39,051 nucleotides of DNA from IMG/VR virus record IMGVR_UViG_3300027987_000372, positions 1-39,051 of that record. One strand, 5' to 3'. The position numbers were made by a program, and so were the translations under genes. Numbering within the stretch: the stretch's first letter is position 1; each line of letters starts with the position of its first letter. A model generated the notes under the pieces. It did not search any database. It was not told where the DNA came from and saw only the letters and a list, made by a program, of their open reading frames with translations. This DNA comes from a virus. Positions 2,616 through 39,051 of this stretch are shown here, one piece after another.

Positions 2616-2643
2616 GCTGCCCGTGGCAATGAACACGGGCAGC
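2616..2643 (+). promoter_or_regulatory. Strong intergenic stem-loop before the gene at 2675
   Basis: GCTGCCCGTG (2616-2625) and CACGGGCAGC (2634-2643) form a perfect 10-bp stem with an 8-nt GCAATGAA loop. A small second stem CTGGC/GCCAG (2646-2661) follows, then GGAGG. No U-run is present. Confidence 0.7.
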
Positions 2644-2674
2644 ACCTGGCACTCAAGCCAGAGGAGGAAGCATC

Positions 2675-2890
2675 ATGGTGGGAACGCTAGAGCTGATGGC
2701 TCCGTCGTTGGCAATCGTGGGGCTTGGGGCTTCAATAATCGCGACAGCGTACATCGACTCGATTCGATGTGCGAAGCGCGACGCCGAGAAACTGACGAAG
2801 CTCAGGCTCGGCCAAGACGCAATCGAGACGCAACGGTACAAGTACGTCCAGGCCTTCCTGGACACAATGAAAGAACCCGAAGGATGGTAG
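2675..2890 (+). CDS. Small single-pass membrane protein, function unknown
   Basis: A 71-residue protein. GGAGGA lies about 7 nt before the ATG. Residues 7-26 (LMAPSLAIVGLGASIIATAY) form one transmembrane helix, followed by a charged helix (AKRDAEKLTKLRLGQDAIETQRYKY). Early small membrane proteins of phages often act in superinfection exclusion or on host membrane enzymes, but nothing specific is seen. It ends 5 nt before the chosen start of the next gene. Confidence 0.6.
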   Translation: MVGTLELMAPSLAIVGLGASIIATAYIDSIRCAKRDAEKLTKLRLGQDAIETQRYKYVQAFLDTMKEPEGW

Positions 2891-2895
2891 TAGAG

Positions 2896-3582
2896 ATGGA
2901 AGACAGAGTAAAGGCTTGGAAAACGCGTTCAGTAGGACCACTCGGATCGGACTACGCAACCATCGAGGTTGCGCGCATTGACGACGAAGAGTCGTGCTCG
3001 CTTATGCGGAAGCGCACAATCAATGAGCTGAAAAAGCATTACGTATCGGACTACGATACCATCGACGTGCTTTCAGCTGTATCGAACAGAGACCTAGCGA
3101 ATAACATCGGATGCGCAGTCGGCGGATACATCATCGGACAAGCAATGATGCTGATCGAAGAACTTTCTGGCGTTGAGTGTCACCTTCCGGATGAACTCGT
3201 CCTTGTTGCCCCGATGTCTGGAGGGCACGCTGTAGCACTGATGGCTGCAGCATCACTCATTGGAGATCCACGAATCAAAACAAGGGTGGTCGCTTACGAC
3301 CACAGGGCGAAGTGGGGTGAAGCGAAGGGGTTCTTCAGGCCTTCGCTTCCCCTAAGCGAAACATCAATGGCTATCTTAGTTGACGACGTTGTGAAGTCGT
3401 CAATGACGTTGCACCGGACGTACTTGGCCGCGACGTCGTGTCTAGGAAAGGAACCAGTTGGAGCTGTCGTTCTGTTCGACGCAGGGTGCATCGACCAGAG
3501 GACAAGGCTTTGGATGGGTACTGAAGGTGTGCCTTTGCACTCAGTGTTCGAAAAAAAGGAGTTCATCAGTGACTTGTCATGA
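2896..3582 (+). CDS. Phosphoribosyltransferase-like protein (type I PRTase fold)
   Basis: A 228-residue protein. The key signature is AILVDDVVKSSMTLHRTYLA at about residues 159-178: hydrophobic strand, Asp-Asp, then a small-residue/Thr loop, matching the PRPP-binding loop of type I phosphoribosyltransferases (for example VLVDDVITTGGT in orotate PRTases). Upstream, LVLVAPMSGGHAVALMAAAS is compatible with the PPi-loop region of the fold. Family members join a base to PRPP in nucleotide salvage or synthesis; the base used here is not readable. The start is uncertain: ATG 2884 has no space for a ribosome binding site, so ATG 2896 is preferred. The next gene begins inside its 3' end. Confidence 0.6.
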   Translation: MEDRVKAWKTRSVGPLGSDYATIEVARIDDEESCSLMRKRTINELKKHYVSDYDTIDVLSAVSNRDLANNIGCAVGGYIIGQAMMLIEELSGVECHLPDELVLVAPMSGGHAVALMAAASLIGDPRIKTRVVAYDHRAKWGEAKGFFRPSLPLSETSMAILVDDVVKSSMTLHRTYLAATSCLGKEPVGAVVLFDAGCIDQRTRLWMGTEGVPLHSVFEKKEFISDLS

Positions 3583-7656: not shown

Positions 7657-7974
7657 CTATTCAACCGCGGCGAACATGCTCGGGTCAACGCGCACCTGGA
7701 AGTCTCCGGTGGTCGTGCGAATCGTTCCTGAACCAGTGACACGAAACCAGTAGATGGGGGATTGGTCCAGCGTGATCCACATGTAGTAAACACCAACACT
7801 GTCCCTAGTGATCTCTGCAGCCGCGTATGTCGCTGACTTCAGGATCCCCTCTGGTGTTTTCCACTGAATGGTGACACGGCTCGGGTCAGCGAGCGTATCG
7901 GTTTCGTCGCGAAACGTCATCTGGATCTTGATGCGAGACCCGATTGGAAAGCCTTTTCTACTTGTAGAACTCAT
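7657..7974 (-). CDS. Small beta-rich virion/appendage protein
   Basis: A 105-residue protein starting MSSTSRKGFPIGSRIKIQM. It looks like a single Ig-like or fibronectin-like beta sandwich (VTIQWKTPEGILKSATY, VGVYYMWITLDQSPIYWFRVTGSG), a form common among small phage tail or capsid-surface proteins. Its ATG overlaps the stop of the LamG-repeat gene (ATGA, 7971-7974), so the two are coupled. Function not known beyond probable virion surface. Confidence 0.6.
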   Translation of the reverse strand: MSSTSRKGFPIGSRIKIQMTFRDETDTLADPSRVTIQWKTPEGILKSATYAAAEITRDSVGVYYMWITLDQSPIYWFRVTGSGTIRTTTGDFQVRVDPSMFAAVE

Positions 7975-9494
7975 AGTGCAACTCCAAAGAAGTCCGCCTC
8001 AACGCTGCAGTTAGTGACGTCCTCATCAATCGACGCTTGCAACGTCAAGCTTATCTCAAGTGACGCTTGCGAAGTCACGGTTATCTCAAGTGACGCGCTG
8101 AACTCGTCCTGAGGCGAGCGGATGGTTTCAGTTTGGTACGATTGGTACTCGGCAATCGCCGCTGAAACGACAAGCGTAGCCGTCGCAGAATCAGAATGAA
8201 CAGCAGAATACTCATCTGCAGTAGCAGATACCACCACGCCGGCAGAAGACGATTCGGACTGTGAGGTGCCAGTTTCTTCTACAGACGCTGAAACCACCAC
8301 CTGAGCAGCAAACGACTCTGAATGTGACTGCCCAGTCTCTGTTACGCTTCCAGAGATCACTGCTGTTGAGCCAGCGACTATGCTCTCAGTTTGCACCGAA
8401 GCAGACTCTGTAGACGCTGAGGCAATTGGCATGGCGGATGCCACTGACTCAGTTTGGGCAGATACTGACTCCGACGAAGTAGCATTCACACTGCTGCCAG
8501 CGTTCAGCGATTCGGTTTGCGCCGACACTGACTCCGCGGAAGTTGCGCTTACTCGCACTCCGGATGCCAACGATTCAGTCTGGGCTCCAATCGCCTCGGC
8601 AATAGAACTTGCAATGAGCAATGCCGCGGCAATGTTGTCTGTTTGCCCTGTTCTAATCTCTGTGAGCGCCGAAGAAACTAGAACAGCAGCAGCAATGGCA
8701 TCGGTCTGAGTAGACGCCGACTCAGCAGAGGATGCCGAGATCGCTGTCCCACCTGTGGAGTAAACCCTCCTGATGAACGACTCATGGCCAAGGTACGGAT
8801 CGCTGCTAATGAGCGCGATCTCCTGAGCGTCCAGAACGCGGTTGAACGCTCGTGCGCAATAGATGGTACCGTCGAACGAGCTAGCGGTCTCAAAGCGATT
8901 GGTCGATATGCACAACGGGTCACCGGGAGTTACCGGGTACCCAATCCCCGAGCCATCCTGATTGTACGAGTCACCACGTGCAGCTGCAGTTCCGTCGAAG
9001 TACGCGACAATGCCGCTGTAGTTGTTGGTGCCATCGTACGTGCACACCAACACGTGCTCCCCTGTTCCTGGCGGAGTGAATGTTGCTCGAACATCAGTCG
9101 AGCTCCTGATGAGCTCAAGCTTGAAGTACGCAGCAAGCTCGTAGTACGTACCGAATGTCCAACCACCAGAAGAGAAGTAGTCGCAATGGCAACCAAGACT
9201 CAAGTTGGTCGAGGTTACTTGATTGTAGTAGTACACCCACGTTGCTGGTGTCGCGTGAAGCGTGTTGGTGTACTGATGGTCACCGAACTGAACGCAATCC
9301 TCGTAGTACCAGTTCCCACCGAACTTCTTGCCTGCTGTTCCAAGGGAACTGGTTGCACCTTGCGTTATCGAGCCTACGAGTGTTCCGGCGTATCCCTTGG
9401 CCGCGTCACACGTAGGATTGCGCGCATCCCACGCGAACACGCATCCGCGATTGATCGGATGTCGCTTGTCCAGTCGTGGGGAGTAAACTCTCAC
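7971..9494 (-). CDS. LamG-like appendage protein with ten 21-residue repeats
   Basis: A 507-residue protein. Residues about 1-245 form a concanavalin/LamG-like domain (RGCVFAWDARNPTCD..., HVLVCTYDGTNNYSGIVAYFDGT, GTIYCARAFNRVLDAQEIALI), typical of carbohydrate-binding phage tail and appendage proteins. Residues about 251-463 are ten tandem ~21-residue units of the form VSATSAESVSAQTESLNAGSS, low in aromatics and rich in Ser/Ala/Thr/Glu. A short C-terminal region with internal repeats (SLEITVTSQASLEISLTLQ) ends the protein. It probably binds the cell surface through LamG and extends by a repeat stalk. The start overlaps the preceding stop by ATGA. Confidence 0.75.
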   Translation of the reverse strand: MRVYSPRLDKRHPINRGCVFAWDARNPTCDAAKGYAGTLVGSITQGATSSLGTAGKKFGGNWYYEDCVQFGDHQYTNTLHATPATWVYYYNQVTSTNLSLGCHCDYFSSGGWTFGTYYELAAYFKLELIRSSTDVRATFTPPGTGEHVLVCTYDGTNNYSGIVAYFDGTAAARGDSYNQDGSGIGYPVTPGDPLCISTNRFETASSFDGTIYCARAFNRVLDAQEIALISSDPYLGHESFIRRVYSTGGTAISASSAESASTQTDAIAAAVLVSSALTEIRTGQTDNIAAALLIASSIAEAIGAQTESLASGVRVSATSAESVSAQTESLNAGSSVNATSSESVSAQTESVASAMPIASASTESASVQTESIVAGSTAVISGSVTETGQSHSESFAAQVVVSASVEETGTSQSESSSAGVVVSATADEYSAVHSDSATATLVVSAAIAEYQSYQTETIRSPQDEFSASLEITVTSQASLEISLTLQASIDEDVTNCSVEADFFGVAL

Positions 9495-11285: not shown

Positions 11286-11798
11286 TCACAGCCTGTTGAT
11301 TGGTACTGAACTCGAGTCGTTGATGGTTGCCATGACGGGCGGAAGGAGATCCCCTCGCTCGAACGAGATGCACAGCGAGCGCGCAACAACGCGCACGGTC
11401 ATCAAGTACATCTCAGCTTTCACTCGCTGCGATTCAGGAAGCGCCTCGTACTCAACGAGACACGGGTGCTCTTTCTTGGCCTCGTCCTCGACAGGTCCGT
11501 ACTTCCACCCGTGCTCGAGCTTGAACTTCATCCAGTTCTCATGAGACTGCTTTGGTGTTGCGCCATTCAATGCGCTTGACACACCGTCGCGTGACGACTC
11601 ACGTATCTCTTCTGTGACATCGTTCCATCCCAATGGGATGTCGGCATCGATTGCGATGCAGTAGGCTCTTTTCACTTCGTGAGCTGCACGTGCGCAAGCC
11701 TCCACGATCTCTTTTCCGTGCGCACCTTTGATTGCTTCTGCATGTTTGGTCATTGCGTCATTCGCTCCGCTTTGGTTCGGGGCGCCGAAGCGCCCCAT
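11286..11798 (-). CDS. RyR-domain protein
   Basis: A 170-residue protein. The central part HENWMKFKLEHGWKYGPVEDEAKKEHPCLVEYEALPESQ is the signature of the ryanodine-receptor (RyR) domain: H-x-x-W, helix, GW-x-YG, D-x-x-KK-x-HP-L-PY/EY-x-L-P. RyR domains occur singly in many bacterial and phage proteins, where their role is not settled (nucleotide or peptide binding has been suggested). The N-terminal helix is Ala/Glu/Lys rich. It lies between lysis-type genes and the appendage cassette. The ATG at 11798 is chosen; ATG 11753 is an alternative. Confidence 0.85.
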   Translation of the reverse strand: MGRFGAPNQSGANDAMTKHAEAIKGAHGKEIVEACARAAHEVKRAYCIAIDADIPLGWNDVTEEIRESSRDGVSSALNGATPKQSHENWMKFKLEHGWKYGPVEDEAKKEHPCLVEYEALPESQRVKAEMYLMTVRVVARSLCISFERGDLLPPVMATINDSSSVPINRL

Positions 11799-11804
11799 TG
11801 ATCT

Positions 11805-12131
11805 CTACAGCAGCCCCTTTTCCTTACCAACCTTCACAGCAAGGTCGGACTTGGTTTGCTGAACAGCCTTGTTCGCTTGCTCACTTGGCCGAGTCGCGAG
11901 AAAGATGTCGACGATATCCGACACCTTGCACAGTGCCTCGGTCCACTGGGACACCGAATACCCACGAATCTTCGCTGCTTCAGCGACCTCTGAACGCGTG
12001 GACAATGCCGACTCGCACGCGTCCTGGGCAAGGTCATTCACTGTCTTTGCCCATGGCAACGCTGCGCATCCGTTGGTAGCGCCAGCCGCAATGAACGTCA
12101 CTAGGCACAACATTGGTGCAATTCTAATCAT
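11805..12131 (-). CDS. Small lipoprotein, o-spanin candidate
   Basis: A 108-residue protein starting MIRIAPMLCLVTFIAAGATNGCAALPW: a short basic start, hydrophobic core and the sequence ATNGC as a plausible (not perfect) lipobox with Gly at -1. The rest is helical and soluble (KTVNDLAQDACESALSTRSEVAEAAKIRGYS). It starts inside the end of the holin-like gene (8-nt overlap, another frame). A lipoprotein next to a single-pass membrane protein with a long helix is a common spanin-pair arrangement, suggesting a Gram-negative host. The pairing is inference. Confidence 0.6.
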   Translation of the reverse strand: MIRIAPMLCLVTFIAAGATNGCAALPWAKTVNDLAQDACESALSTRSEVAEAAKIRGYSVSQWTEALCKVSDIVDIFLATRPSEQANKAVQQTKSDLAVKVGKEKGLL

Positions 12132-12543
12132 TCTCCAGTTTCTCCTTCTGTTCTTTCGCCAGTTTCTCTGCCAGTTTCTCTGCGTGCAGTCTATCGTCGA
12201 GCGCACGCTTCGTTGACTCCTGAATGATCCTCTCAAGAGCCTTTTCTGTCAACTGCGACTCTTGGCGAGTCGCTTGCACAACGTCTTGACTTGTCTGTGT
12301 GCGAGCTGACGATACTTGATACTGCGTCATCGCTCCAATGAGCGCCATCGCAACCGAAGTTACCGAGGCTACAACCTTGGTGAATCGTGCGTTCCCCCGA
12401 CGAATCTCTCCTTTGATCTCCTTTTCGAACAGCTCCTCGAGCTTGGTCACTTTTACTTCCAATCTGTTCACTGCATCGAGTGCGATTCTGCCGTAGTCCG
12501 TGTTCCCAGACCGCGGTTGCTCTTCAATGGTTTCTTCTGGCAT
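12124..12543 (-). CDS. Holin-like or i-spanin-like single-pass membrane protein
   Basis: A 139-residue protein. A charged coiled-coil-like N-terminus (VNRLEVKVTKLEELFEKEIKGEIRR) is followed by one transmembrane helix (about residues 58-76, VASVTSVAMALIGAMTQY) and a long charged C-terminal helix (LTEKALERIIQESTKRALDDRLHAEKLAEKLAKEQKEKLE). GAGG lies 4 nt before the ATG. The form suits either a phage holin of the coiled-coil, one-helix class or an inner-membrane spanin subunit. It overlaps the lipoprotein gene. Confidence 0.6.
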   Translation of the reverse strand: MPEETIEEQPRSGNTDYGRIALDAVNRLEVKVTKLEELFEKEIKGEIRRGNARFTKVVASVTSVAMALIGAMTQYQVSSARTQTSQDVVQATRQESQLTEKALERIIQESTKRALDDRLHAEKLAEKLAKEQKEKLEND

Positions 12544-28105: not shown

Positions 28106-29530
28106 ATGACTGAGCTGAGCATATCCGACTACTGCCCACACCCACCAAGTCCCAAGCAACAGCTGTTTTTGAGCATGCGCTATAAGGTGGTCGGGTACGG
28201 TGGGGCCGGCGGTGGAGGAAAGAGCGATGCCCAGCTCATGGCGGCACTACAAGGCATCGAGATCCCGTCATACCGCGCCATCTTGTTGCGAAACTCGTTC
28301 AAGTCACTGTCACTCCCTGGCGCACTTCTAGATCGCTCCCACGAGTGGTGGGATCGCTCACCGGCGAAGTGGCGCGAGCTCGACAAGACGTGGACTTTCC
28401 CGAGTGGGGCGCGAATCACGTTCGGGTACCTCGACAAGCTGAAAGACCTCGAACAGTACCAATCGTCGGAGTTCCATTACATCGGATTCGACGAGTCAAC
28501 GCAGTTCAACCCATACCTCATCACATGCATGTTCGCGCGTCTCCGGAGACGCAAAAGTGGCTTTCCTAAAGCCTTTCCATTACGAGTGCGCTTCACGACG
28601 AACCCGGGCGGTATCGCCCACAAGTGGCATGTAAAGTTCTTCAATGTCCCCAAGGCTGCTGAAGTTGATCGCTTGAAAGGTCCAGTGGTATCGCGTGATG
28701 ACTTCGGGGTGATCCAACGCGTATTCGTTCCGGCGTACGCGCAAGACAACCCAGGACTCGACATCGACAACTATCTCGAGAGCCTATCGTTCCTACCTGA
28801 GGTGCGTCGCAAACAGATTCGCGACGGGCTCTGGGTCGAGGACATCACGATGCTCGTGTACGGCAAGGCCATCAGAGCACGAATCGAGCAATGCCTTCCA
28901 GATGGTGGGTACAAGTTCTGGTACCTGCTATCTATCGACTTCGGTGCATCGAGGTCTACTGCGTTCACGATCTATGCGGTCTGTGAGGAGCTGCAGCAGA
29001 TGTACGTAGTGAAGTGCTACAAGCCAGAGAACGCGAACAACGCTGCTGACATAGCAGAGCGCTACTACGAGCTCGACTCCATCTACCACTTCAATCGCGT
29101 CGTTGCCGACCACGGAGCACTTGGTAAGGGGTACATCGACGAGATGCGTAAACGCTTTTCAATCCCCGTGCAGAACGCCGAAAAGCAGAACAAGCGCGGG
29201 TATATCGATCTATTCAACGACGCAGTGGAGCGAGAAGAGGTAATCTTCCTGCCAGCAGCGTATGAGGGATTCTACGAAGAGGCTGGTGCCCTAATCTGGA
29301 AAGATGAGAATCGCATCCTCGAGATGCCAGGGATGGCGAACCATCGCTGCGACTCTACGTTGTACGGCTTCCGCGAGGCAAAGCACTACACAGCAACGCC
29401 TAAAAAGCAAGATGAGCTCAAGCCACATGACCCGATTGAGGATGCGATAATGGCCCGCGTCCGGAAGGAGCAGGCCACTATCAACAGGCTAGGAACTACT
29501 ACGTTGCCCAGTCTATATCGTCAGAGGTAG
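28106..29530 (+). CDS. terL: Large terminase subunit
   Basis: A 474-residue protein with all expected motifs. ATPase: Walker A GGAGGGGKS at about residues 32-40 and Walker B HYIGFDEST with D129/E130. Nuclease (RNase H-like): D278 in SIDFGASRS, D335 in VVADHGALG and D446 in DPIEDAIMARV. It packages genome DNA into the capsid through the portal. It is alone on the plus strand between two leftward units, 44 bp from its divergent neighbour, with no SD before the ATG; its last 10 bases overlap the end of the opposing gene at 29521. I do not see a small terminase beside it. Confidence 0.92.
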   Translation: MTELSISDYCPHPPSPKQQLFLSMRYKVVGYGGAGGGGKSDAQLMAALQGIEIPSYRAILLRNSFKSLSLPGALLDRSHEWWDRSPAKWRELDKTWTFPSGARITFGYLDKLKDLEQYQSSEFHYIGFDESTQFNPYLITCMFARLRRRKSGFPKAFPLRVRFTTNPGGIAHKWHVKFFNVPKAAEVDRLKGPVVSRDDFGVIQRVFVPAYAQDNPGLDIDNYLESLSFLPEVRRKQIRDGLWVEDITMLVYGKAIRARIEQCLPDGGYKFWYLLSIDFGASRSTAFTIYAVCEELQQMYVVKCYKPENANNAADIAERYYELDSIYHFNRVVADHGALGKGYIDEMRKRFSIPVQNAEKQNKRGYIDLFNDAVEREEVIFLPAAYEGFYEEAGALIWKDENRILEMPGMANHRCDSTLYGFREAKHYTATPKKQDELKPHDPIEDAIMARVRKEQATINRLGTTTLPSLYRQR

Positions 29531-29940
29531 TCCTCGTACAGGTACAGCTCGTCGTCTCCGTGCTGAACCACCACCGCCACTGCGCCTGGCCCGCAGAGTC
29601 CTTGGCAGTCAGTGGTTCCATGAACGATGTCCACGAGCTGGTAGTCGCCAACATAGAATCGTTCATCAGGCGTCGCGTAGCACGAGTACCTGTTGCCGGT
29701 TACCCGGCACCCTGTGCCAGCGTCACGCGCCACCCTGAAGTCTCCGTGGACCACGTTGCACGCCATGTACTCGGCCGGTAGTACCCTCTCTACGCTGCAA
29801 AGATCGTCTCCCATGTTCGTGTACGTCGAACCTTCAGATGTACTACTCACTGCCTCTGCTGCCATCTCCTGTGGCATCGGTTCGCATGACGTTGGTGTTG
29901 TTAGCGCTGTCGCAAGAAACATCACTGCTACGTTTTTCAT
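29521..29940 (-). CDS. Secreted or lipid-anchored small Cys-rich protein
   Basis: A 139-residue protein starting MKNVAVMFLATALTTPTSCEPM: lysine, hydrophobic core, and TPTSC as a possible lipobox (Ser at -1). The mature part has several cysteines (LCSVERV, MACNVV, TGCRV, YSCYAT, TDCQGLCG) that could form disulfides, so it probably works in the periplasm. Phage proteins of this type may be superinfection-exclusion lipoproteins or lysis inhibitors; nothing seen decides. It starts within the upstream gene (98-nt overlap) and converges on terL with a 10-bp overlap. Confidence 0.6.
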   Translation of the reverse strand: MKNVAVMFLATALTTPTSCEPMPQEMAAEAVSSTSEGSTYTNMGDDLCSVERVLPAEYMACNVVHGDFRVARDAGTGCRVTGNRYSCYATPDERFYVGDYQLVDIVHGTTDCQGLCGPGAVAVVVQHGDDELYLYEDYL

Positions 29941-30262
29941 CTTTCTCTTTCTTTCGCTCCTTTTTCCCTGCTTGATATGCGTGCCATGCCATGGCTACCG
30001 CAAGTGCGTCCCAGCGGTGTCCAGCGAACGGACCCATCTGGCATACCTCAGACTTGGTTTTTGGCTCATAGCGCGACGATACTGCGCTCGATATGAACAC
30101 CGATGCGTTGCGCATCAAGAGGATGGCTCCACGATAGAACCTTGAGTCTATCGCCTTGTTTCCAGATGGTTCAAGCATGCTCCAGCCATCGGTCTTCAAT
30201 GCCGCAACGACGCACTCGTGAGCCTTTCTGAGCTCCTCTGCGAACTCGTCATCGTTGTCCAT
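29843..30262 (-). CDS. Hypothetical protein, paralogue of the 30592-30921 gene
   Basis: A 139-residue protein starting MDNDDEFAEELRKAHECV, with its ATG sharing one base with the upstream stop. It contains FAGHRWDALAVAMAWHAYQ, closely matching FVGHKWDALAAAMSLYIHE in the gene at 30592-30921. Its basic Lys/Asp-rich C-terminal tail (QAGKKERKKEKDEK) overlaps the next gene. The paralogous pair points to a duplicated gene. Fold not recognised; the GH-x-W-D-A-L-A motif resembles a helix cap. Confidence 0.6.
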   Translation of the reverse strand: MDNDDEFAEELRKAHECVVAALKTDGWSMLEPSGNKAIDSRFYRGAILLMRNASVFISSAVSSRYEPKTKSEVCQMGPFAGHRWDALAVAMAWHAYQAGKKERKKEKDEKRSSDVSCDSANNTNVMRTDATGDGSRGSE

Positions 30263-30585
30263 CAATCGCACCCAAAGGCCTTCCTAACCGCAAGAATGGT
30301 CTTCTCTAGACTCTCTTTCGTGTACTTCAGGTGAGCGATGCCATTCTCAAGACAATCGATCTTGTTTCGAAGAGAACGACTCTCTTCGTTGCTCTCATCA
30401 ATAGCTACCCTGCATTGCTCCTCAAGTTGCTCGAACCTGTCGTGTCGAGTGTACTTCACAGATCTATGGCGATGCGGGCAACGAATCCACTGCTCGTCGT
30501 CACACCATCCTCGCGTGCAGGCTCCAACCATTCTCTCGTCTGCAACACCGCACACGTTGATTGTATCGTCATGAATACCGCACAT
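30262..30585 (-). CDS. Cys-rich, coiled-coil small protein
   Basis: About 107 residues from ATG 30585 (a GTG at 30591 is equally possible). The first half is Cys/His-rich (MCGIHDDTINVCGVADERMVGACTRGWCDDEQWIRCPHRHRSVKY), a plausible zinc-binding region. The second half is a charged helix with coiled-coil look (FEQLEEQCRVAIDESNEESRSLRNKIDCLENGIAHLKY). The start follows directly on the stop of the previous gene, so it is coupled. Function unknown. Confidence 0.6.
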   Translation of the reverse strand: MCGIHDDTINVCGVADERMVGACTRGWCDDEQWIRCPHRHRSVKYTRHDRFEQLEEQCRVAIDESNEESRSLRNKIDCLENGIAHLKYTKESLEKTILAVRKAFGCD

Positions 30586-36783: not shown

Positions 36784-37184
36784 ATCATGTACCTCCTTCT
36801 ACCTCTGTTGCTCTGATATCTGCTACCCGACAACGCGGTTCCGTTTTTCTTCTGCACCTCCTTTCCTATCCGGCACAGCGCAAACGCACACTGGCATTGC
36901 CGTTCTGACTTGGTTGCAGCCCATTCAAAGTATCGCTTGAGCGGATGAGCAGAATCAACCAGTGTTCTCACAGACATGATGTCGATCAGGTTGAACTCTC
37001 TGAGCATGTCGTCAGTCGAGAGTATTACCGAGATGCCGCCCTTCACATGAAGAATGGCATCACAGTATGGGCACCTGAACGTGGGGCGACTCAAGTTGAA
37101 TGAGTACTCATGATGAGTTGGATCGACAGGAGATGCATCGATCCACATGTAGAGCTGTGCAGGGGTTTTGAGCTTCCAGCTCAT
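36780..37184 (-). CDS. Zinc-ribbon-like small protein
   Basis: A 134-residue protein starting MSWKLKTPAQLYMWIDASPV. It has FRCPYCDAILHVKGG and a later Cys cluster (ERQCQCAFALCRIG), consistent with a zinc ribbon. A basic tail follows (NRGRRRYMI). Its start and end overlap neighbours by ATGA, so it is part of a tightly coupled run. Function unknown. Confidence 0.6.
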   Translation of the reverse strand: MSWKLKTPAQLYMWIDASPVDPTHHEYSFNLSRPTFRCPYCDAILHVKGGISVILSTDDMLREFNLIDIMSVRTLVDSAHPLKRYFEWAATKSERQCQCAFALCRIGKEVQKKNGTALSGSRYQSNRGRRRYMI

Positions 37185-37849
37185 GTTGGTTCACCCCACT
37201 TCTCCCAGAGCCCATCAGTTTCTCGCTCTACATTCTCGAGCACTTTCTCAAGTGAGGAAGCATATGTAACAGGATTCGCCGTGAAGTACGCGTGCCTGCG
37301 CAGCGCCGTGCAGTACTCTTCCGGATCTCCATGTATCAGCCCAAGAAGCACGTCTTCTCTGCCTGGTGCGCTGACGTACTCAAGTTGGTCAGCAACACCA
37401 GCAGTGAGCGACTCGAACGCTCTGAACTTCGACCACGGATGCTTCGGAAGCAACGATACCGTAACGTACCTTTCTCCGTCACGCATGTATTCTGGGCCAA
37501 CGATCACGAGGCTTGGTCCCATTGCTTTCACTGTTGGCAACTTTGCAACTGGGATCTCTTCCCCGCACTGGAAGAACTGCCAGTCACCACGTGAGCGCCC
37601 GTACTTGCGATTACCAATGTTCCAGCACCGACACTTGTTACGACCTGTCTCAAGGAACGCATGCGCGATCTTGAGATTCACTGCCTTACGCGAAGGATAC
37701 GAAGCCGAATCAGTTGACAGTTCCGGGAAGCGCTTATCCGCCTCTGGCCCACGGAACCTTCGAGTCAATGTTTCCCATTGCAACAGCAGCTCGTTCCACA
37801 GGATGTTTGCGTTCAATGGCGTCACGATTGATTGTAGTTCTCTTGACAT
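37181..37849 (-). CDS. Hypothetical 222-residue protein
   Basis: It starts MSRELQSIVTPLNANILWNE; AGGAG lies 6 nt before the ATG, which supports this start even though the first 116 nt overlap the previous gene. The protein has a helical N-terminus, a Cys/Arg-rich part (RNKCRCWNIGNRKYGRS; FFQCGEEIP) and a beta-rich middle (SLVIVGPEYMRDGERYVTVSLLP). No family recognised. Confidence 0.65.
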   Translation of the reverse strand: MSRELQSIVTPLNANILWNELLLQWETLTRRFRGPEADKRFPELSTDSASYPSRKAVNLKIAHAFLETGRNKCRCWNIGNRKYGRSRGDWQFFQCGEEIPVAKLPTVKAMGPSLVIVGPEYMRDGERYVTVSLLPKHPWSKFRAFESLTAGVADQLEYVSAPGREDVLLGLIHGDPEEYCTALRRHAYFTANPVTYASSLEKVLENVERETDGLWEKWGEPT

Positions 37850-38165
37850 TCACTACTCCTTCCCAGTTTCCGCATTCGTTGCACATTGGTGTCAATTCAG
37901 CGTTTTCGTATCTACGGATCACGCACGACGCGAACAGCGCGTAGTGTCCGCAACGAATGAACTTCACCAACCACTTGACTTTCTTGGTCCAGGGATTGTC
38001 TCTGACGATCCCCTCGAGACGAAGTCCCAGCAGCTCTTGGCCGATGTAGTAAGCATACTCTTGCCGGTGCGGGTTTGGTTTTCTAGACCGCGCATCTTCG
38101 CGAGTTTCTGGCACTTCCGTGTCGCCGATCCGTCTTCTGTTGCCATTCTTGGCCGGCTCTGCCAT
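37734..38165 (-). CDS. Small zinc-binding-type protein
   Basis: A 143-residue protein from ATG 38165 (MAEPAKNGNRRRIGDTEVPE), where AGAGG is 7 nt upstream; the ATG at 38171 is too close to it. Cys pairs FIRCGHYALFASC and MCNECGNW suggest a zinc ribbon of the R-C-G-H type. The N-terminus is Arg/Asn-rich. The C-terminal 38 residues are encoded on DNA shared with the next gene. It is the second gene of the leftward unit after the protease. Confidence 0.6.
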   Translation of the reverse strand: MAEPAKNGNRRRIGDTEVPETREDARSRKPNPHRQEYAYYIGQELLGLRLEGIVRDNPWTKKVKWLVKFIRCGHYALFASCVIRRYENAELTPMCNECGNWEGVVNVKRTTINRDAIERKHPVERAAVAMGNIDSKVPWARGG

Positions 38166-38200
38166 CGTCATACCTCTTTCTGTTTCGCCGCAGTTAGACA

Positions 38201-38238
38201 CCCCGGTCGCAGTGGCGTGAACCGCTACGGCCGGGGTC
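38201..38238. promoter_or_regulatory. Imperfect inverted repeat after the protease gene
   Basis: ACCCCGG (38201-38207) pairs with CCGGGGT (38232-38238) and AGTGG with CCGCT inside (38212-38227). It fills the gap between the protease stop (38249) and the next ATG (38165) on the minus strand. There is no T-run on that strand, so partial termination or RNA processing is more likely than a hard stop. Confidence 0.5.
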
Positions 38239-38248
38239 GCTTTTCGTG

Positions 38249-39051
38249 TCACGAGGCAGCTGGCACCATCGGGCAAACCATGTAGGCGCCCGAGAAGAAC
38301 AACCGGTACAGATCGGACACGGTGTAGTAGTAGAAGCCACCGCCAACTCCCCATGAGTCTCCCCAAGAGTTGCGAAGCCACATGCGTTGGTTGAGCACGT
38401 CGAAACCGAGTGCTTCAGTCGAATGTCCACCCTGAAGGTCACCGGTTACGCTAGTTGCTCCACACAGGTCTGTGACGTTGCCAGAGGAGTACCAGTTTTG
38501 ATCGAACGCGCATGGCCCGCTCATCAGAGCGTCATGCCACCCCTGAGGGGATTGCTCAATCTGGCGTACTCCGCGCACCCATCCCCAACGCAACGCCACG
38601 GACATCGTGCTGGTGGCGTAGCTTCCGTTGTCCGTGGGAGGGTATGCGCCACGGCAAGTGTCGTCTGTGATCTGGCAGCCACGGTCGAGCCTCGTAGCTG
38701 CAGAGTACAGCGCAATTGCATCGGACAGAGACATGTGCCTGTCGTACGGATACGTCGACAATACTCCGTCCACTGACGCTCCGGTGCAAAGCCCGACGTT
38801 CCCTTGGTCGAGCGACCCCTTGTCGTTTGGTGTCCACCAAACATCGTCACCAGTCACTGGATCGGCAGCCATAGTAGCAAGCGCAGACTTGGATCTGGGC
38901 TGCATCGCAGGTCCGAACTTTCGCACCGGCAACGACTTCATCAGGCTCAGTCGAGTGGTGTCAGTCTCGCACTGAGGAAACGCTGGACGCGCCGTGACCG
39001 TTTCAGTTGTTGCTCCGCCCGCACCAGCAGTCTCCAGTGTTTCCCACGGAT
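38249..39051 (-). CDS. Papain-family (C1) cysteine protease, catalytic domain; 5' end continues at 298-1
   Basis: The C-terminal part of the 318-residue protein that crosses the junction. All four papain-family landmarks are present in order: oxyanion Gln Q134 in DQGNVGLC, nucleophile C140 in GLCTGAS, His H261 in GGHSTEALGFD and Asn N279 in RNSWGDSWG. Extra Cys (CQITDDTC, CAFD, CGAT) could form disulfides, agreeing with an exported enzyme. Phage papain-like proteases are unusual; possible roles are cell-wall or outer-membrane protein degradation at entry or lysis, or processing of virion proteins. It heads the leftward unit. The longest frame inside the window begins before 39051 and is cut by the window end. 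Confidence 0.88.
   Translation of the reverse strand, partial: PWETLETAGAGGATTETVTARPAFPQCETDTTRLSLMKSLPVRKFGPAMQPRSKSALATMAADPVTGDDVWWTPNDKGSLDQGNVGLCTGASVDGVLSTYPYDRHMSLSDAIALYSAATRLDRGCQITDDTCRGAYPPTDNGSYATSTMSVALRWGWVRGVRQIEQSPQGWHDALMSGPCAFDQNWYSSGNVTDLCGATSVTGDLQGGHSTEALGFDVLNQRMWLRNSWGDSWGVGGGFYYYTVSDLYRLFFSGAYMVCPMVPAAS
38908..39051. repeat. Terminal direct repeat, right copy (circular overlap)
   Basis: Identical to bases 1-144 throughout. Both copies fall inside the protease gene and preserve its frame, which is expected if the molecule is a circle written with an overlap. Confidence 0.95.

Follow-up and report, generated by a model that had tools for sequence, protein, structure and literature searches.

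The window, which is the whole 39,051-nt stretch of viral DNA analysed here, encodes across its map junction a papain-type cysteine protease of 318 residues. This putative protease is probably exported and tethered to the host envelope, where it would cut envelope proteins during lysis and contribute to the failure of the envelope layers that lie beyond the peptidoglycan. We hold this reading with moderate confidence, chiefly on the fold of the protein, its N-terminal architecture and the lysis genes beside its relatives.

A papain-type protease gene across the map junction

Bases 1–144 of the window are repeated exactly at 38908–39051, and this identity of the ends makes the window a circular genome of 38,907 bp. 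The repeat is best read as an overlap left by assembly, the genome being circular or permuted. It lies inside the protease gene, and a physical DTR was rejected because it would cut that gene. The minus-strand reading from 298 to 1 and on from 38907 to 38249 is open throughout. The 5′ part (1–298, −) is colinear with the homologues L012–L015 and encodes signal residues 6–28, Cys29–Cys30, a Pro-rich stretch and a Gly/Ala/Thr-rich linker; the 3′ part (38249–38907, −) encodes the C-terminal end with the catalytic domain. The N-terminal stretch contributed by the other end of the record, CCGPNTPEPLPPIPW, is colinear with GCEACGPKPTPVPVPPEP of L014/L015. Since the N-termini of L014 and L015 lie on single unbroken contigs, the join of the two ends is real.

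The alternative in-frame ATG at 304, 6 nt upstream of ATG-298, would give a protein of 320 residues. The Shine-Dalgarno sequence AAGGAG is 8 nt from ATG-298 and just 2 nt from ATG-304, so the 318-residue start is favoured. No sigma-70 promoter was seen upstream of the gene. The linear record shows only a 230-residue ORF starting with ATG or a 266-residue ORF open at its 5′ end. The original prediction, made from the sequence, was that the gene crosses the junction, starts so as to give 318 residues and loses its N-terminus in linear annotation; the end identity, the open frame, the colinearity with L014/L015 and the spacing of AAGGAG bear it out.

Q134, C140, H261 and N279 (Q82, C88, H209 and N227 in the numbering of the linear part, to which 52 is added for the full protein) stand in papain order at the positions first proposed, and all four are invariant in 59 aligned family members. 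The window sequence alone scores 17.4–18.9 bits against Pfam Peptidase_C1, below the 20.7-bit cut-off. The phrog_16701 family, annotated as 'peptidase', matches the protein with E 2e-16, and the profile of the 59-sequence family finds xylellain, also with E 2e-16. A single-sequence AlphaFold model was unusable (pLDDT 31), and the model built from the 59-sequence alignment was used instead (mean pLDDT 81, pTM 0.82). Its best Foldseek match is xylellain (E 5e-8). The nearest solved fold is likewise xylellain (PDB 3ois, Z 17.0 over 190 residues); papain gives Z 15.2 and the cathepsins near Z 15. The papain-family assignment thus survived both the profile search and the structure model, in which the papain fold was present. 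Tetrad order, modelled fold and profile similarity place the window protein among the xylellain-type C1A peptidases, and proteolysis is its predicted activity.

A seeded IMG/VR scan gave 217 confirmed relatives, and relatives occur in 25 isolate-phage records, mostly Gordonia, Streptomyces and Arthrobacter phages. A plasmid search returned one weak Streptomyces match. Apart from one Kuenenia MAG, the scan of genomes yielded only actinobacterial relatives, probably in prophages, and thus indicates no host for the window; as a guess, the Gly/Ser-rich linkers might point to a myxobacterial host. Acquisition of xylellain-type C1A genes by Caudoviricetes has been published (PMC10380794), and the 217 relatives show that phages carry the family widely; the earlier statement that C1 proteases are unusual in phages is thus not supported. 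While such proteases are already known in tailed phages, a tethered version encoded within a lysis cassette seems to be new.

The N-terminal signal, linker and cysteines

An N-terminal signal that ends in Cys and leads into a linker, first Pro-rich and then rich in Gly/Ala/Ser/Thr, is found in five of 98 distinct family members (the window, L012, L013, L014 and L015) and is absent from the other 93 tested. The five form one monophyletic clade with support of 100/99. They have in common four extra invariant cysteines (27, 180, 196 and 259 in the linear-part numbering), which are expected for folding in an oxidising compartment. Between L014 and L015, dN/dS is 0.14 over the whole gene, indicating purifying selection, and 0.08 over the signal and linker, showing that the N-terminus is constrained too.

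Signal, Cys and linker make export probable, as had been proposed. The proposed SAR-type anchor was not supported: in each of the four closest relatives a Cys terminates the hydrophobic stretch and the linker comes next, and the catalytic domain is a C1 protease rather than any known peptidoglycan-hydrolase domain. Judged from these N-termini, the clade protease would be a lipoprotein-like envelope enzyme rather than a SAR-anchored one. TGAC of L013 and ATAC of L012 fit a lipobox. The context of Cys29 in the window, ATLC, has Leu at −1 and is not a canonical lipobox, so the signal may be cleaved or uncleaved. Lipidation is therefore likely for the clade, less so for the window protein.

Lysis genes around the protease

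Three full-length relatives, G001, G003 and G004, are syntenic with the window over the portal, capsid, internal virion protein and tail genes (G001, G002 and G003 are the genomes labelled L012, L013 and L014 above). A capsid-protein search, independent of the protease, returned the same three. G007 and G008, relatives by MCP, are without the protease, but both are fragments. In G001, G003 and G004 the protease gene immediately follows the tail genes and shares their strand.

The protease stop codon in G003 and G004 overlaps the start of a gene for 150–155 residues with WCGAF and HHAI motifs, read by eye as a CHAP-like putative endolysin; the G003 protein gave no match in Pfam, PHROG, NCBIfam or PDB. 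Both phages also have, upstream of the protease, a Tad2-like gene and a gene for a membrane protein that contains a lipobox-like cysteine. The Tad2-like anti-Thoeris gene (PF11195, E 6.5e-28) stands directly upstream, in the 29264–29476 region of G003 (L014:7405–7620, +) and at the equivalent place in G004, inside the putative lysis cassette. In G002, an unrelated Mu-like phage, the stop codon of the protease gene and the start of a GH25 lysozyme gene (E 1e-23) overlap, and the upstream membrane/lipobox protein is homologous to that of G003 (E 2e-20). These homologues (G002 29753–30478, G003 28569–29264, G004 1805–2434) have N-terminal membrane segments and an internal lipobox-like cysteine, and are possibly holin–lipoprotein fusions. 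In G001 the gene overlapping the protease stop codon encodes a GH10 xylanase (about 37336–38208, +; PF00331, E 4e-47).

Separate membrane, lipoprotein, protease and lysin genes form cassettes in L016, L124, L128 and L147. In L128 and L016 a lipoprotein with a Pro/Gly linker is encoded immediately upstream of a signal-less protease; L128 is placed, with weak support, as the sister of the tethered clade. The order in L123/L124 is coiled-coil membrane protein, small membrane protein, lipoprotein, protease and GH25 lysin, the GH25 domain being confirmed. A response-regulator receiver-like gene lies directly upstream of these putative holin/lipoprotein/protease/GH25 cassettes (L123 4429–4782, L124 4433–4786). 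In Gordonia phages the protease gene lies between the amidase and holin genes, and several actinophage members sit among tRNAs or elsewhere, which counts against a role in lysis. Relatives of the window protease are thus linked to holin, endolysin or spanin genes.

Because the neighbour gene calls are crude, the enrichment numbers are indicative: around 96 distinct proteases, 11 lysin ORFs were found, ten within 2 kb, one at 3 kb and none at 4–8 kb (359, 325 and 458 kb of sequence available in these classes), and when 150 near and 150 far ORFs were scanned with Pfam, seven lysis-type matches fell near the protease and none among the far families listed. The probes for the 11 ORFs were GH25 and the Lilbeanie lysin, with seeds ignored; the other lysin queries came from near the protease. 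By our own arithmetic, a uniform spread of the 11 has p of about 7e-5.

The window itself is arranged differently from G003 and G004. In the window the recombination genes separate the protease from the last tail gene; in G003/G004 they lie beyond the lysin. The window protease therefore heads a leftward gene run, away from the tail genes. Replication genes follow further along the run; the protease could therefore be expressed early, which counts against a lysis role. Two genes downstream of the protease in this run, 37181–37849 (−) encodes a putative endolysin, a FlgJ-like glucosaminidase with the catalytic-Glu motif AHAFLETG. It matches nearly the whole of PF01832 (E 0.011) and, by BLASTP, E. 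coli FlgJ (E 0.022, colinear over residues 58–218 through the catalytic-Glu motif). The match was not seen in NCBIfam, PDB or a genome profile search, so this lysin stays a candidate. Between it and the protease is an ORF of about 143 residues (37734–38166, −) for which no relatives were found.

The 139-residue product of 12124–12543 (−) has a single membrane segment at its centre and a C-terminus that is charged and helical, and it may be i-spanin- or holin-like; a DUF1615 match on it was discarded as noise. Its gene is overlapped by 8 bp by the gene for a small lipoprotein-like protein (11805–12131, −), which may be o-spanin-like. Among the tail genes, 11286–11798 (−) encodes a RyR-domain protein (PF02026, E 4.6e-12; phrog_5154, E 2e-33). 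The product of 7971–9494 (−), with a LamG-type lectin domain (PF13385, E 6e-7) and a repetitive Ser/Ala/Glu-rich C-terminus, is likely a receptor-binding tail protein. Beside the exonuclease/Sak4 recombination genes, 2623–3582 (+) encodes a phosphoribosyltransferase-like domain (PF00156, E 0.001, below cut-off).

The original prediction had argued for a lytic, entry or host-surface protease on the ground that no lysozyme, amidase or transglycosylase was recognised elsewhere. Given the FlgJ-like candidate and the pair at 12124–12543 and 11805–12131, that premise is probably wrong and the argument probably fails. The linkage to lysis genes in relatives gives independent support to the lytic reading, which is the likeliest of the three.

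The leftward run, divergent from a small helix-turn-helix-like reading frame, would also suit an envelope moron, an exported and anchored protease that would be produced early or by lysogens and would block superinfection by trimming proteins of the host surface, such as receptors. The exported, tethered layout of the clade fits such a role too, as does the place of some actinophage members in accessory regions. We consider it unlikely, because the protease gene closes the late operon behind the tail genes of G001, G003 and G004, is coupled to lysin genes in unrelated phages, and is accompanied by no integrase recognised in the window by profile searches. Less likely still is a secreted degradative enzyme, part of a hydrolase cargo module rather than of lysis, digesting extracellular protein, matrix or prey. 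The xylanase coupled to the protease in G001 is not a lysin, and mannanase and endoglucanase genes lie near the protease member of GX15bay; against this, the coupled partner in G002, G003 and G004 is a lysin or lysin-like gene, and anchoring would limit release. A virion- or tail-associated protease serving entry is very improbable, for beyond its position adjoining the tail genes in G001, G003 and G004 nothing supports such a role, the signal, terminal cysteine and disulphide-type cysteines are unsuited to a tail part assembled in the cytoplasm, and the neighbours are lysins.

A proposed accessory role in lysis and its parallels

For the favoured accessory lysis role, the following path can be proposed. 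In the five-member clade a C1A endopeptidase is fused to a lipoprotein-type export signal and a flexible linker. The protein would be exported through Sec, stay tethered to the envelope, facing the periplasm (at the outer membrane if lipidated), and fold there with two disulphides. It would then cut envelope proteins, for example the tethers between outer membrane and peptidoglycan or other protein layers. Cutting around the time that the endolysin opens the wall would help the outer layers to fail, and the protease would act beside holin and endolysin, not in place of the endolysin. Such a role, if true, would assign a function to a family of more than 200 phage proteases that is usually filed as 'peptidase'.

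The third step of Gram-negative lysis, breakage of the outer membrane, is carried out by spanins or disruptins. We know of no enzyme used in this step. If true, an envelope-tethered papain encoded next to endolysins would offer a proteolytic way of carrying it out. A bolder proposal is that in phages of some Gram-negative hosts an outer-membrane-anchored papain, formed by fusion of the cassette lipoprotein to the C1 protease, severs envelope protein links and partly or wholly replaces the outer-membrane disruption by spanins. We offer this tentatively and think it doubtful.

The two-component spanins (Rz/Rz1) and mycobacteriophage LysB are parallels in the way they work, as a third, outer-layer step of lysis, and the spanins also in the small lipoprotein of the arrangement. 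However, membrane fusion by spanins involves no catalysis, and LysB is an esterase, whereas the window protein is a protease of unrelated fold. A spanin pairs inner- and outer-membrane subunits for membrane fusion; the window protein has just the lipoprotein-like half. SAR endolysins, too, are phage lysis enzymes that carry a hydrophobic segment at the N-terminus and are exported. In the window clade, unlike in these, the segment ends in Cys and a linker, and the enzyme is a papain, not a muramidase, with no known peptidoglycan activity.

The phrog_16701 proteins of Gordonia, Arthrobacter and Streptomyces phages, annotated as 'peptidase' or 'cysteine protease' (for example Sixama gp109, GMA2 gp38, Aleemily gp29 and Mufasa8 gp26), belong to the same family, with 25–33% identity and an invariant tetrad. 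Several of their genes sit in a lysis cassette, adjoining LysA amidase and holin. Unlike the window clade, the actinophage proteins examined have no signal peptide, and a holin would thus be needed for them to reach the wall. Xylellain (3ois) and the xylellain-type bacterial C1A peptidases are closest in fold and sequence and have the same Q-C-H-N order, at about 17% identity between xylellain and the window protease. The window clade differs from xylellain in its export signal, its Pro/Gly linker, its four other conserved cysteines and its lysis-cassette setting.
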